Assembly (NCBI GenBank): GCA_019084485.1 | Contig: JAHRFU010000058.1 | Location: 1 to 36,118, forward strand | Direction of reading: 5' to 3' | Source of the DNA: Desulforudis sp. | GTDB lineage: Bacteria; Bacillota; Desulfotomaculia; Desulfotomaculales; Desulforudaceae | Length of the DNA stretch: 36,118 nt | Part shown: one piece after another, positions 3,425 through 32,469 of the stretch | How positions within the stretch are numbered: position 1 is the first letter of the stretch | Layout of the letters: the number at the start of each line of letters is the position of its first letter | Translations under genes and position numbers: made by a program | The notes under the pieces: generated by a model | What the model saw: the letters and a program-made list of their open reading frames with translations, nothing else | What the model was told of the DNA's origin: nothing | Database searches by the model: none

Positions 3425-5143
3425 TTACTTACGCACACGGCTTGGCGCTACACGCATCGGACAAACCCCTGTGGGGCATTTCTGCTCCTTGACGTGTGTG
3501 TCGTACTCGTCGCGATAGTTTGAAGTTGTGCTCAACACCGGATTCGGAGCAGTCTGGCCCAAACCGCAGAGCGCGGAATTCTTAACCACATTGGCCAGCT
3601 CAATCAGCAGTTCCAAGTCTTCGGGAGTACCCCTTCCCTGTGTCATTTTGGTTAAGATCTCCGACATCCGACGGGTGCCGATGCGACAGGGAGTGCACTT
3701 GCCGCAGGACTCTTCCTGGACAAAATCCATGAAGAACCGGGCCAGATCCACCATACAGCTGTCCTCGTCCAGCACGATCATCCCGCCTGAACCCATGATC
3801 GACCCCAGCTCCGCCAGTGACTCGTAGCTAATCGGCACATCCACGAACTTGGCCGGAATCGCGCCACCGGACGGCCCGCCGGTCTGTACGGCCTTAAGCG
3901 CCTTGCCGTTGGGCACTCCGCCACCGATATCATAGATCACCTGACGCAGCGTGGTTCCCAGGGGAACCTCCACCAAACCAGTGTTGTTTACCTTACCGGC
4001 TAGGGCAAAGACTTTGGTACCTTTGCTCTTCTCGGTTCCAATAGATGCGTAATACTCTCCGCCGCGATGGATGATCAAAGGTACGTTGGCCCACGTCTCC
4101 ACGTTATTAATCGTCGTCGGCTTACCGAACAGTCCCTCCTGCGCCGGGAACGGCGGCCTCGGGCGCGGTTCCCCGCGGCGTCCCATAATAGACTCCAGTA
4201 AGGCGGTTTCCTCACCGCAGACAAAAGCACCGGCACCGACGCGTACCTCGACATCAAAGTCAAAACCCATACCCAATATGTTTTTGCCCAGGAGTCCGTT
4301 CGCCCGGGCCAGTTCAATCGCGTAGGTAAAGTTCTTGATCGCCAGGGGATACTCGGCCCGGATGTAGGCGTAACCCTGCGAGGCACCGACGGCATACGCT
4401 CCGATAACCATCCCTTCAAGCACAGAGTGCGGGTCGCCTTCCAGCACGCTCCGGTCCATAAAGGCACCCGGATCGCCCTCGTCACCGTTGCACACCACGT
4501 ATTTCGGGGTGCCTGGAGCCTTCCGTACAAACCCCCATTTGAGTCCGGTCGGGAAGCCCGCTCCGCCCCGTCCACGCAAACCCGATATGGTAATCTCGTC
4601 AATCACCTTCTCGGGAGAGTCCGCCTCCAACACCGCAGCCAGAGCCGCGTACCCGTCCCGGGCGATGTACTCTTCAAGTGACAGCGGGTCAATAAACCCG
4701 CAGTTGCGCAGCACCAGACGCTTCTGATTGCGGAAATAGTCGATGTCTTGCCAGCGGTCCTGAAGCTTGCCGGTTTCCGGGCTGCGATACATCAACCCTT
4801 CAATGTGACGACCTTGCTCCAGGTGTTCCCGGACAATGTACACCGCATCGTCAGCCTTTACGCGCTGGTAAAAAGTGCCATCGGGATAGATCGTCACGAT
4901 CGGACCCATGTTGCACGGTCCGAGGCAGCCGGTGACGATCACCCGCACCTTTTCTTCCAGACCGCGGTTTTTAATCTCATCAATCAGCGTGTCCCTAACG
5001 GATTTGCATCCGGACGACACACAACCCGTTCCTCCACATACCAGGACGTGGTATTCATACCCGTCCTTCGACTTCTCTCCGTCGCGTACCAGCAGCTTCT
5101 CGCGGGCAGCGGTACGTAATACAGTCAGTTGTTCAATATTCAT
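3425..5143 (-). CDS. hydB: NADH-binding flavoprotein subunit of the hydrogenase (NuoF-like, HydB/HndC)
   Basis: Binds FMN and NAD(H) and passes electrons to HydA. The 572 residues start with a thioredoxin-like [2Fe-2S] domain (CGGTGCVSSGC near 37-47, then CLGPC near 73-77). The NuoF core follows, with the FMN-binding GRGGAGFPTGLKW, the NAD-site VCGEETALLES, and an N3-type [4Fe-4S] motif ESCGKCTPCR with a later CGLGQ cysteine. The protein stops soon after a CPTGVCP motif and does not carry the C-terminal two-cluster ferredoxin domain found in Thermotoga HydB. I chose ATG at 5143 (MNIEQLTVL) rather than the upstream ATG at 5224, because the upstream one lies inside hydC. The gene begins 16 bases after the hydC stop. 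Confidence 0.93.
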   Translation of the reverse strand: MNIEQLTVLRTAAREKLLVRDGEKSKDGYEYHVLVCGGTGCVSSGCKSVRDTLIDEIKNRGLEEKVRVIVTGCLGPCNMGPIVTIYPDGTFYQRVKADDAVYIVREHLEQGRHIEGLMYRSPETGKLQDRWQDIDYFRNQKRLVLRNCGFIDPLSLEEYIARDGYAALAAVLEADSPEKVIDEITISGLRGRGGAGFPTGLKWGFVRKAPGTPKYVVCNGDEGDPGAFMDRSVLEGDPHSVLEGMVIGAYAVGASQGYAYIRAEYPLAIKNFTYAIELARANGLLGKNILGMGFDFDVEVRVGAGAFVCGEETALLESIMGRRGEPRPRPPFPAQEGLFGKPTTINNVETWANVPLIIHRGGEYYASIGTEKSKGTKVFALAGKVNNTGLVEVPLGTTLRQVIYDIGGGVPNGKALKAVQTGGPSGGAIPAKFVDVPISYESLAELGSIMGSGGMIVLDEDSCMVDLARFFMDFVQEESCGKCTPCRIGTRRMSEILTKMTQGRGTPEDLELLIELANVVKNSALCGLGQTAPNPVLSTTSNYRDEYDTHVKEQKCPTGVCPMRVAPSRVRK

Positions 5144-22991: not shown

Positions 22992-24125
<1,134 letters not shown>

Positions 24126-24373: not shown

Positions 24374-25399
24374 CTAGATGATTAGCATTGCGTCGCCGAA
24401 GCTGAAGAACCGGTAGCGCTGGTGCACGGCATCCCGGTAGGCGGCGAGCAGCTGCTCGCGGCCTACCAGCGCGCTCACCAGCATCAGCAGCGTGGATCGC
24501 GGTAGGTGAAAGTTGGTCACCAGCCCGTCGATCACTTTAAACTCATATCCCGGGTAAATGAAGATATCGGTCGTATTCGCACCTGGACGGACGGTACCGT
24601 CCTCCTCCGCAGCGGCCTCCAGGCAACGGGTTACCGTGGTTCCCACTGCGATCACCCGGCCCCCGGCACTCTTCGTATTAGCGATAGCCTGACTCGTTTT
24701 CTCGGGAACCGAGTACCATTCCGAGTGCATCCGGTGCTCATCCACGTTCTCCACCTTCACTGGCCGGAAGGTGTCCAGTCCAATATGCAAGACTACGGGC
24801 ACCACCGCAACTCCGATCTTCTTCACCTTGTCCAGAAGCTCAGGAGTGAAATGGAGTCCCGCCGTGGGGGCGGCTGCGGAACCGGACTGTTTCGCATAGA
24901 CTGTCTGGTATCTGTCCCGTTCTTCAGCGGGGAGGTCACGCTTGATGTACGGGGGTAAAGGCACGTGTCCGATCCGCTCGATGATCTCATCAAACCCACC
25001 CACGTATTTAAACTCAATGACTCGGCCCCCGGCATCTGTGCGGGACAGGACTTGTCCCTGCAGTTCCGGCCCGAAATCAATAAGGGTACCCTCATTAAGG
25101 CGTCGCCCGGGACGCACCAGCGCCTCCCAGCGGTCTTCGCCAGCCGGCTGCAGGAGCAGGACTTCCACCCGCCCGCCCGTCGTCTTGTGGCCAAGCAGCC
25201 GGACAGGCAAGACCCGGGTCTCATTAACCGCCAACAAGTCACCCGGTCGCAAATAATCTACAATATCCCGGAAGTGCCGGTGCGCCAATCCCGTCTCGTT
25301 CCGCCTAATGACGAGCAGGCGGGATTCATCCCGAAAAGGAAGCGGTTCCTGGGCGATTAATGCTTTTGGTAATTCGTAGTCAAAGTCCGCCACCCGCAA
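24374..25399 (-). CDS. queA: S-adenosylmethionine:tRNA ribosyltransferase-isomerase
   Basis: Transfers and isomerises the ribose of SAM onto preQ1-tRNA to make epoxyqueuosine. The core begins VADFDYELPKALIAQEPLPF, followed by DLLAVNETRVLPVRLLG, the SAAPTAGLHFTPELL signature, and LPRSTLLMLVSALVGRE near the end. I chose TTG at 25399 (MRVADFDYELP, 341 residues, the usual family length), preceded by GAGG. An ATG at 25432 and a longer open frame to 25615 exist, but they add sequence unlike the family. It lies between the SpoIID-like gene and tgt, separated from tgt by the repeat-filled gap. Confidence 0.94.
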   Translation of the reverse strand: MRVADFDYELPKALIAQEPLPFRDESRLLVIRRNETGLAHRHFRDIVDYLRPGDLLAVNETRVLPVRLLGHKTTGGRVEVLLLQPAGEDRWEALVRPGRRLNEGTLIDFGPELQGQVLSRTDAGGRVIEFKYVGGFDEIIERIGHVPLPPYIKRDLPAEERDRYQTVYAKQSGSAAAPTAGLHFTPELLDKVKKIGVAVVPVVLHIGLDTFRPVKVENVDEHRMHSEWYSVPEKTSQAIANTKSAGGRVIAVGTTVTRCLEAAAEEDGTVRPGANTTDIFIYPGYEFKVIDGLVTNFHLPRSTLLMLVSALVGREQLLAAYRDAVHQRYRFFSFGDAMLII

Positions 25400-28939: not shown

Positions 28940-29358
28940 TACCGTGCCTCCACCGGTCTTTCGGCCATCTCCAACACCCCGTGCGGGCAAAACCGGGCGC
29001 AACTGCCGCACTGGATACACACGATCGGCTTACCGTCCGCTTCATCGAACTCAATCACGTCGGCAATACAGGCGGCCACACAAACCTGACAACCGGTACA
29101 CTTCTCCGTCTTAAACCGAACACCACCGCCCTTCCTGCCGACCAAGGCTTCTTCCGGGCAGGCCTCCGCGCAGGAGGGCTCCAGGCAGCCGATGCAAATG
29201 TTGGCCGCGAGTTTGCTCTGCAGTCCACCCCTGGTGCGGATCTGGATGGCGCTTTTAGCCGCCGAAAAGCGGCCGAAGACGACCCGAGAGCAGGCGAGCA
29301 TGCACGAATAGCAGGCAATGCAGCGGTTCATATGCTTAACGGTCAGGACCTTGGCCAT
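28939..29358 (-). CDS. Four-cluster ferredoxin, partner of the aldehyde oxidoreductase
   Basis: 139 residues with four cysteine groups: CIACYSCMLAC, CIGCLEPSCAEACPEEA, CTGCQVCVAACIADV and CIQCGSCARFCPHGV. This is the layout of DMSO-reductase-B/HycB-like electron-transfer proteins. Its stop overlaps the aor start, so it very likely carries electrons to or from that enzyme. ATG at 29358 with GGAGTG upstream. No signal peptide; cytoplasmic. Confidence 0.93.
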   Translation of the reverse strand: MAKVLTVKHMNRCIACYSCMLACSRVVFGRFSAAKSAIQIRTRGGLQSKLAANICIGCLEPSCAEACPEEALVGRKGGGVRFKTEKCTGCQVCVAACIADVIEFDEADGKPIVCIQCGSCARFCPHGVLEMAERPVEAR

Positions 29359-29385
29359 AAACTATTCACTCCGTCCCAGGTGCGA

Positions 29386-29610
29386 TTAGCGACGAAACAC
29401 GACGTTTAAGATGAGGGTCAAGAGCAGGCTCAGGACGAGCATGGTTACAATCGGAAAATAGAAGGTGAAGTTGCCTCTCTGGACCAGGATATCGCCGGGC
29501 AGGCGCCCCACGCCGGGGATCTTACCCGCCAAGAGCATTATTCCGCCAAGCACCACTAATGCGGCCCCGAGAATCAGGATGATTCTGCCCAAGCCTGTGA
29601 ACAACTCCAC
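29386..29610 (-). CDS. DUF2905 small membrane protein
   Basis: 74 residues with two hydrophobic helices (IILILGAALVVLGGIMLLAG and FPIVTMLVLSLLLTLILNVVF) joined by the signature KIPGVGRLPGDILVQRGNFTFYFP. This matches DUF2905. Function unknown. I chose GTG at 29610 with AGGAGGG eight bases upstream. The gene start lies inside the 3' end of queH, an 89-base overlap. Family members are often found beside ruvB and queA, as here. Confidence 0.88.
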   Translation of the reverse strand: MELFTGLGRIILILGAALVVLGGIMLLAGKIPGVGRLPGDILVQRGNFTFYFPIVTMLVLSLLLTLILNVVFRR

Positions 29611-30160
29611 TAGGGGTTCCCTCCTTAATGGCCCTCCGGTAGAATCGCTCCTTCTCGCTGAAAACACAGCCGCAGTATTGCTGCCGGTACATCTCCAACT
29701 CACGGGAGCGCCGGGTGGCCTCCCCATATCCTTCCCGGAAGTCCCGATACAGAAACGGAACATCATATTCCCTGGCGGCAGCCTCCCCGACCTCCCGGAT
29801 CAACTCATGCTTCTGGTAAGGGCTCACCAAGAGGGTAGTGGAAAAGGCATCAAATTTCCCCTTCCGGGCCATTCGGGCGGCCTCCCTTTGGCGCAACAAA
29901 TAGCAGAAACGACAACGCTCCCCTTCGCGGTAAACAACGTTGCGGAAGTAGTCATCCAATGGATAATCCGAAGCGAAGATCACCTTCCAGTTCTGCGTCT
30001 GGGCATAGAACGCCAGGGCCTCTTCCCGCCTGCGGTACTCAGAGTATGGATGGATATTGGGATTATTGAAGTAACCGTAGACCGTGTGCCCCTCGTCGCG
30101 CAGGGCATCGAGCGGGTAAATGGAACACGGTGCGCAACAGGTGTGCAGTAACAGCTTGAT
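29522..30160 (-). CDS. queH: Epoxyqueuosine reductase QueH, apparent ATC start
   Basis: Reduces epoxyqueuosine to queuosine in tRNA. QueH (formerly DUF208) is the iron-sulfur enzyme that replaces QueG in many anaerobes. The frame is unbroken for 212 codons: IKLLLHTCCAPCSIYPLDAL (C8, C9, C12), FNNPNIHPYSEY, RCRFCYLLRQREAA (C83, C86), FSTTLLVSPYQ and YCGCVFSEKERF. The first codon of the family-conserved MKLLLHTCC is ATC (30158-30160), with GGGAGG eight bases upstream. No ATG, GTG or TTG exists between the in-frame stop upstream and codon 60, so a call using standard starts would lose the first cysteine cluster. The last 35 or so residues (AIKEGTPSG...) overlap the DUF2905 gene and do not look conserved. 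A good promoter lies at 30215-30243. Confidence 0.88.
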   Translation of the reverse strand: MKLLLHTCCAPCSIYPLDALRDEGHTVYGYFNNPNIHPYSEYRRREEALAFYAQTQNWKVIFASDYPLDDYFRNVVYREGERCRFCYLLRQREAARMARKGKFDAFSTTLLVSPYQKHELIREVGEAAAREYDVPFLYRDFREGYGEATRRSRELEMYRQQYCGCVFSEKERFYRRAIKEGTPSGVVHRLGQNHPDSRGRISGAWRNNALGG

Positions 30161-30214
30161 CCTAAACGCCTCCCGAAAAATACCAAGGGTTTACTACCTC
30201 AGACTGTCACACCT

Positions 30215-30243
30215 ATTTTAGCACTTGATCGACCAGGACTCAA
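30215..30243 (-). promoter_or_regulatory. Sigma-A-type promoter for queH and following genes
   Basis: On the minus strand: TTGAGT, 17 bases, TAAAAT (4/6 and 5/6 matches to consensus). It lies about 55 bases upstream of the queH ATC codon and just beyond the ruvB stop. It would start a queH-DUF2905-ferredoxin-aor transcript. Confidence 0.65.
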
Positions 30244-30259
30244 GCGCGTAGGGATATCT

Positions 30260-31276
30260 TTACCAAAGGCTGGTCTGGTCTGTGGCGGGTGCTGGCTTAC
30301 CCAGGTGCTGGTAGGCCAGCGGAGTGGCTACCCGCCCGCGCGGGGTTCGGGCCAGCAGCCCGACTTGTAACAGGTAGGGTTCGCACACGTCCTCCAGCGT
30401 CACCGCTTCCTCACTGGTCGCGGCCGCCAGAGTGTCCAGACCCACGGGACCGCCGCCGAACAAATCGATCAGGGTCAGGAGCAGTCGGCGATCCGTCACG
30501 TCCAGACCCAGCCTGTCGACACCAAGGAAATCCAGCGCCTCGCGGGCTACCTGAGCGGTGATCCGCCCGTCAGCCCGTACCTCCGCGTAGTCGCGCACCC
30601 TCTTCAGGATTCGATTTGCCACTCTGGGCGTGCCGCGAGAACGTCGGGCGATCTCCACCGCGCCATCGGCTTCAATCTGGACACCTAGGATACCGGCACC
30701 CCGCTTAATGATGTCCTGGAGTTCGCTGACGCCGTAGAACTCTAGCCGCAGTATGACCCCGAACCGGTCACGCAACGGAGATGTCAGCAGACCGGCTCTG
30801 GTGGTGGCTCCGATCAGAGTGAAGTTAGTCAGGTTCAGACGCAGTGAACGCGCTCCCGGTCCCTTCCCAATCACGATATCGAGTGCGAAGTCTTCCATCG
30901 CCGGGTACAAGATTTCCTCCACCGTTCGGGAAAGCCGGTGCACTTCATCAATAAACAGGACGTCCCCCTGGGTGAGGTTGGTCAGTATCGCGGCCAGATC
31001 ACCAGGTCGCTCAATCGCCGGGCCCGAGGTAATCCGAATGCTGCCGTCCATCTCCCGCGCTACAATCTGAGCCAGAGTGGTCTTGCCCAAACCGGGGGGG
31101 CCAAATAGCAGGACGTGATCCAACACCTCTCCCCGATTCCGGGCCGCCTGAATGAAGAGCGCCAGCGTCTCCTTGACCCGATCCTGCCCAATAAACTCAT
31201 CCAGCCGCTTAGGCCGAAGCCCAGCCTCATCCGCATCATCACTGAAATACTGCGGCGCCACAATTCTATCTTCCAT
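30260..31276 (-). CDS. ruvB: Holliday junction branch migration ATPase RuvB
   Basis: Motor of the RuvAB complex. 338 residues: the N-terminal [17 protein letters not shown], Walker A GPPGLGKT (59-66), Walker B LFIDEVH (D110, E111), sensor 1 IGATTRAG, the [10 protein letters not shown] region, and a C-terminal winged helix ([36 protein letters not shown]). ATG at 31276 with AAGGAG. It is separated from ruvA by a 126-base gap containing repeats, so it may not be tightly coupled to ruvCA. Confidence 0.98.
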
Positions 31277-31402: not shown

Positions 31403-31987
31403 CTACTTCCCTAGGTTCCTTAGTGCGGCCCGCACCAACTCTGCGGTGTCATCCTGTGCTTGGGGGCCCGCCAGGCGGATGGCCTCAACCGCTTCGCGCT
31501 CGTTGCACCCGAGGGCCACCAGTGCGGCTAGGGCCTCACCGGATGCGGAGGTCACAGTCCCCAACTCCGTTTCCACCAGGTGCTGCTTCTGAATACGATC
31601 CTTTAGTTCCACGATCACCCGCTGCGCGATCTTTTTCCCGATACCGGGCACCGTACTGAGCAGGGCGGCATCCTCTTGTAGGATCGCCGACCACAGTCGC
31701 CCGGTACCCAACTGGCTGATTGCCGCCAGGGCCGTCTTCGGCCCGATCCCGCCGACCGCCAGCAGTTGGAGAAAGGCCACCCGGTCCGTCTCCTCCCGAA
31801 AGCCGAAGAGTTCCATTCCGTCCTCACGGACAGCTAGGTGCGTATAGAGTCTCACCTTCTGCCCCGGTGAGGGTAAATGGGACAGAACGTTGGTAGGAAC
31901 CTGGACATGCAGGCCTATCCCTCCGACTTCAACGATTACAGCATCCTTGAAGACATCCGCCAGTGTTCCATTGACGTGAGCGATCAA
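31403..31987 (-). CDS. ruvA: Holliday junction binding protein RuvA
   Basis: Tetrameric junction-binding partner of RuvB. 194 residues: an OB-fold N-terminus (MIAHVNGTLADVFKDAVIVEVGGIGLHVQVP), the two helix-hairpin-helix motifs (FLQLLAVGGIGPKTALAAIS and LLSTVPGIGKKIAQRVIVELKD), and the C-terminal RuvB-binding three-helix domain (ALAALVALGCNEREAVEAIR). The start is TTG at 31987, overlapping the ruvC stop by four bases (TTGA). Confidence 0.97.
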   Translation of the reverse strand: MIAHVNGTLADVFKDAVIVEVGGIGLHVQVPTNVLSHLPSPGQKVRLYTHLAVREDGMELFGFREETDRVAFLQLLAVGGIGPKTALAAISQLGTGRLWSAILQEDAALLSTVPGIGKKIAQRVIVELKDRIQKQHLVETELGTVTSASGEALAALVALGCNEREAVEAIRLAGPQAQDDTAELVRAALRNLGK

Positions 31988-32469
31988 ATCGGGCTTACTC
32001 CTCTCCGGTTATGACAGTGACAAAGAGCTACCGCCAGGGCATCGGCAACATCGTCCGGCTTAGGCACCTCAGTCAGTCCAAGAATAGCCCGAACCATAAA
32101 CTGAACCTGCTTCTTGGAGGCCCGGCCCTGTCCGGTCGTGGCCTGCTTCACCTGCAGCGGGGTGTACTCGAAAACTGTAGCACCGACCTCGGCCGCCGCC
32201 AGGAGGGCTACACCCCGGGCCTGACCCACTACGAGAGCGGTGGACACATTGCGGTTGAAAAACAGCTGCTCCACAGCTGCTTCCTGTACTTGGTAAGTCC
32301 GAAATACGTCAGTCAACTGATGAAAAAGGAGCCGTAGCCTCTCCGTGTGCGGGGTACCGGCCGGGGTAAAGATGCAGTCATAAGCCAGTGCCCGGTAGCT
32401 GTTGCCACTGAGGGCCAATACTCCGTAGCCGGTCCGCGCAATACCGGGATCAATACCGACGACATGCAT
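31984..32469 (-). CDS. ruvC: Holliday junction resolvase RuvC
   Basis: Endonuclease that cuts Holliday junctions. 161 residues with the four metal-binding acids D7 (VGIDPGIARTGYG), E67 (AAVEQLFFNRN), D140 and D143 (KPDDVADALAVALCH). ATG at 32469 follows GGGGGAGG. It is translationally coupled to ruvA downstream. Confidence 0.98.
   Translation of the reverse strand: MHVVGIDPGIARTGYGVLALSGNSYRALAYDCIFTPAGTPHTERLRLLFHQLTDVFRTYQVQEAAVEQLFFNRNVSTALVVGQARGVALLAAAEVGATVFEYTPLQVKQATTGQGRASKKQVQFMVRAILGLTEVPKPDDVADALAVALCHCHNRRGVSPI

Follow-up and report, generated by a model that had tools for sequence, protein, structure and literature searches.

Desulforudis is a bacterium of the deep subsurface. 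In the genome studied here its queH gene, which encodes an epoxyqueuosine reductase of 212 aa (minus strand, 29522..30160, counted from ATC), is most likely translated from an ATC codon. As read from the 36,118-nucleotide stretch of DNA analysed here (the window), the gene is intact and maintained by selection, AUC at 30160-30158 is its only plausible initiation codon, and the supply of protein would be low and possibly sensitive to initiation factor 3 (IF3), a reading to which a probability of about 0.8 is given. An ATC start had been proposed in a first-pass annotation of the same DNA, and the comparisons below support and strengthen the proposal. This type of start has precedents in a few other bacterial genes, to which queH adds a further case.

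Apart from its start, Desulforudis QueH is an ordinary member of its protein family. The translation covers all model positions 1-175 of the Pfam QueH profile (PF02677; 208 bits, cut-off 23.5) and matches the Thermotoga maritima QueH in the PDB (7lc5) with an E value of 2e-27. The cysteine motifs HTCCAPC, CRFC and YCGC are present and align with those of PDB entries 7lc5 and 9dco, so that the N-terminal HTCCAPC motif is conserved, as first described; re-reading of the codons together with the full Pfam match likewise bears out an intact frame with ATC at the position of the family's initiating methionine. Like the characterized proteins of the family (PF02677; T. maritima 7lc5), QueH here has the full domain, CC and CxxC-type motifs, and queA and tgt nearby; it differs from them in starting at ATC rather than ATG, GTG or TTG and in a C-terminal tail that has drifted. 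The enzyme is predicted to reduce epoxyqueuosine to queuosine in tRNA, as the last enzyme of the queuosine (tRNA modification) pathway. QueA and Tgt give clear matches, both within the window (profile-match extents 24380..25390 and 23016..24071, respectively, both on the minus strand), while a profile search for QueG returned only weak partial matches far below the cut-off. QueH is thus likely to be the sole epoxyqueuosine reductase, some expression of it is expected, and the cell probably needs it.

On the minus strand, the codons leading into the gene read TAG TAA ACC CTT GGT ATT TTT CGG GAG GCG TTT AGG ATC AAG CTG TTA CTG CAC ACC TGT TGC GCA CCG TGT. TAG TAA (30196-30191; the TAA at 30191..30193) marks the upstream limit of the queH frame, the proposed initiation codon ATC lies at 30158..30160, and a GGGAGG Shine-Dalgarno (SD) sequence (30169..30174) precedes it by 8 nt. 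A sigma-A-type promoter, TTGAGT-17-TAAAAT, is found at 30215..30243 (30243-30238 and 30220-30215). The TAA, ATC, SD and promoter, all of them named in the first-pass annotation, were confirmed, and re-reading of the frame showed, as also stated there, neither ATG nor GTG nor TTG from the TAA (30193-30191) to codon 60, where the GTG at 29983 is the earliest standard start. An interval of 59 codons without a standard start is not rare in itself, since 445 of 2374 internal 59-codon stretches in long open reading frames of the same genome also lack one. The weight of the case lies elsewhere: no standard start is found between the in-frame stop and the cysteine motif, and this is repeated in a second species.

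That species is represented by genome G001, a separate assembly that matches the public record QZIR01000023 (isolate SURF_60) without a difference over 900 nt. Its queH (locus L003) is 82% identical to that of the window at the DNA level and about 90% at the protein level, and it too is without ATG, GTG or TTG between the upstream in-frame stop and the cysteine motif. Both genes share ATC AAG CT, CGGGAGGCG, the 8-nt spacing and the promoter (TTGACA-17-TACAAT in G001), ATC being conserved in loci L002 and L003, whereas the six nucleotides directly before ATC differ (TTTAGG in the window, GCACCG in G001). An error of base calling or assembly that hides a true ATG could be imagined in a draft genome of 137 contigs such as the one that yielded the window, but the same ATC recurs in a separate assembly of another species, in coding DNA that is 18% different and behind different bases. 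This explanation, for which a C at 30158 (ATG) had been named as the telling observation, has become very unlikely, hardly deserving credence, and is refuted unless both assemblies share an identical error.

The substitutions between the two species show where coding begins. After ATC, 18 first, 9 second and 62 third codon positions differ from L003 (168 sites of each kind), while the differences over the 45 nt before ATC show no phase (8, 8 and 6, with 15 sites each). Codon-phased conservation therefore sets in at ATC. For the window and G001, queH has a dN of about 0.05 and a dS of 1.0-1.3, i.e. a dN/dS of about 0.04-0.05, and the low dN relative to dS together with the phased substitutions indicates protein-level selection in both lineages. 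A recent loss of the start codon in a decaying gene fits poorly with these values, with the unbroken frame and with the cysteine motifs, all intact in both species; moreover, ATC is older than a split with a dS of about 1. What speaks for decay is confined to the 3′ end, which has drifted, with a net change of 2 nt in length that carries the frame about 30 codons beyond that of the relative, and decay is accordingly regarded as highly improbable. The extra codons (29522-29610, minus strand) lie beyond the position of the G001 stop and give the C-terminal tail; in G001 the stop is part of TAGTG and overlaps the start of the DUF2905 gene. Three readings of ATC had been offered at the outset; base-call error and recent start mutation are contradicted by an assembly about 18% divergent with the same ATC, SD and spacing, leaving low-level or regulated initiation as the favoured one. 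On the simplest reading of the two sequences, ATC would have been present already in the common ancestor of both species. Its exact sharing by two species only is weak evidence that selection keeps ATC as such, because at a dS close to 1 about 30-40% of third bases would be expected to remain the same by chance (our own estimate).

Among wider relatives, 112 queH loci with the cysteine motif were located, some genomes contributing more than one. Upstream of the motif, a standard start is missing only from the Desulforudis loci and L083, and outside the genus the standard starts are mostly at the position equivalent to ATC. In other genomes read in the order, ATG, and sometimes GTG or TTG, stands at or adjoining this position. 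The alignment with relatives suggested earlier thus shows ATC conserved in the second Desulforudis and ATG usual elsewhere in the order, at times replaced by GTG or TTG; the simplest history would be a change from ATG to ATC within Desulforudis. In sister genera of the family (L084-L087), the start lies further upstream (TTG, ATG, GTG and ATG) and the protein has an N-terminal extension, encoded directly behind ruvB. An upstream standard start in relatives, the other observation that had been set against the ATC start, therefore occurs only in sister genera and with a different N-terminus, not within the genus. In L083 (1467-1511; G004, a fragmented draft from a sister genus), queH has no ATG, GTG or TTG upstream of the cysteine motif, and a start at ATT after GGTGGTGA is possible there.

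Other ways of reaching the conserved N-terminus have to be weighed against AUC. Initiation at a different non-standard codon (ATT at 30181, or CTG at codon 3 or 5) would shift the N-terminus by a few residues; ATT and CTG, too, can act as weak starts, and the codon-5 CTG is conserved. This is improbable, as L003 has neither ATT 30181 nor the codon-3 CTG (its codon 3 is CTT), and a start at the codon-5 CTG, 20 nt away from the SD, would cost residues 1-4, which the family keeps. More improbable still is the production of QueH by frameshifting from an upstream out-of-frame start. Such a start exists in the same relative frame in both species (TTG in the window, GTG in L003), with a run of T between it and queH, but neither species has a proper slippery heptamer or a conserved structure, a possible SD for the upstream start occurs only in the window, and the conserved SD points at ATC. 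No credible Rfam match to a riboswitch or known RNA was obtained in 29300-30400, even at a lax threshold, and RNA folding over the SD and ATC was no better than that of shuffled sequences in either species (z 0.1 to 1.4). A search for synonymous-site constraint near the start gave 6 third-base changes in 29 codons (codons 2-30) against 56 in 140 later ones, which is not significant (p 0.06).

The use of near-cognate starts elsewhere in the genus was surveyed by comparing 1.03 Mb of this genome (G000) with 1.20 Mb of G001, which is part of both genomes; 323 gene pairs remained after filters. A gene can be detected in this way only if its conserved part extends for 8 codons or more before the first standard codon is reached. 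Besides queH, infC was the only convincing conserved gene lacking a standard start. The first pass ranked queH highest, and a stricter pass dropped it in favour of a longer antisense open frame. Two genes in about 320 is a lower bound, given the 8-codon condition. A generally relaxed use of starts in this genome was rejected, infC being the sole convincing match among the 323 pairs. The other matches were discarded as frames broken in one genome, as a selenocysteine-type TGA (selD-like) or as non-coding leaders before an ordinary start, and a few more were too short for judgement. The selD-like gene (L219, G000 contig C44, minus strand near 4536-4540) has its in-frame TGA in LTAGGG*AAKIGP, comparable to selenocysteine-containing SelD proteins. 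The infC start is ATA in this genome (L088 409, G000 C78) and ATT in G001 (L089), each after AGGAGGTG, non-standard yet interchangeable within the genus. The parallel with infC drawn in the first-pass annotation is thus apt, and these starts suggest that near-cognate codons are probably used in Desulforudis.

Initiation on queH could be pictured as follows. On mRNA from queH's own promoter, GGGAGG would position the 30S subunit with AUC in the P site, where fMet-tRNA (anticodon CAU) would pair with A and U and be mismatched at the third-position C. Because of this mismatch, initiation would be weaker than at AUG, and weaker still when IF3, which destabilises mismatched initiation complexes, is plentiful. 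Near-cognate codons support initiation at a lower rate, and IF3 discriminates against them (PMC5472188, PMC13009471). In two Clostridium species, AUU, AUA, CUG and AUC reached 5-20% of the AUG level behind one leader, and a second leader brought six non-AUG codons, AUC among them, to 40-100%; in E. coli, AUC works at a few percent or less (PMC9680021). Given reduced rates and IF3 discrimination, a modest supply of QueH is to be expected, possibly IF3-sensitive, as might suit a catalytic enzyme wanted in small amounts only. The ATC is a real feature that probably limits expression, the actual use of AUC and its low yield both being predicted from sequence.

The queH start belongs with those of infC (AUU, AUA, ATC), pcnB (AUU), sigR (GTC), cvfC1 (AUU) and ccpN (AUA). 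Noncanonical starts are subject to repression by IF3, and the infC gene of Streptomyces has an ATC start (PMC5472188). Like infC (AUU in E. coli, ATC in Streptomyces, AUA in S. aureus), queH has a conserved near-cognate AUN start, accompanied by an apparently good SD. In contrast to infC, which encodes the discriminating factor itself and is autoregulated, queH would be a downstream target only. Streptomyces sigR (GTC, IF3-repressed) resembles queH as a gene other than infC whose non-standard start is conserved in the genus and replaced by a standard one in related genera, but its codon is GTC rather than ATC, the start is experimentally proven, the ribosome-binding site is extensive (AGGAGGTG) and an upstream ATG serves a long form (PMC5472188). 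S. aureus cvfC1 (AUU) and ccpN (AUA) and E. coli pcnB (AUU) share with queH a near-cognate start with expression expected at a fraction of that from AUG (PMC13009471 and references therein), and the cvfC1 and ccpN starts are conserved between species, as is the queH ATC (PMC13009471). Non-canonical starts in S. aureus are of an extended SD type (PMC13009471), with measured yields, whereas queH has an ordinary six-base SD (GGGAGG, six pairs, 8-nt spacing); the SD region of infC in this genome reads AGGAGGTG.

By its codon type, queH is possibly under IF3 control. A tentative and rather doubtful extension would join queH and infC in a small IF3-controlled set, so that a shortage of IF3 relative to ribosomes would raise both IF3 synthesis and AUC initiation on queH; if so, the queuosine level of tRNA would be tied to the supply of an initiation factor. 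Characterized conserved starts other than ATG, GTG and TTG are few, and regulators or translation factors account for several; a search of a limited set of open-access papers turned up no start of this type for queH or any other tRNA-modification gene. As a metabolic gene for tRNA modification, queH extends this list and offers a link between IF3 and queuosine that can be tested. Gene callers restricted to three start codons would truncate queH to 153 aa (GTG 29983), with loss of HTCCAPC, or miss the gene.

The locus reads, on the minus strand, ruvC, ruvA and ruvB (32469-30260), a 99-nt gap, queH and the DUF2905 gene, with queA and tgt further on. By NCBIfam and Pfam matches, ruvB (30260..31276) is the gene upstream of queH, with ruvA (31403-31987) and ruvC (31984-32469) beyond it. 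The DUF2905 gene (29386..29610; Pfam PF11146) overlaps the 3′ end of queH by 89 nt and has a GTG start, as read from the sequence. In the sister-genus loci L084-L087, queH follows ruvB after only a few bases, while in Desulforudis the 99-nt gap carries the gene's own conserved promoter. The antisense open frame of 228 codons (29465-30151, plus strand) spans nearly the whole of queH and is probably a by-product of codon usage.
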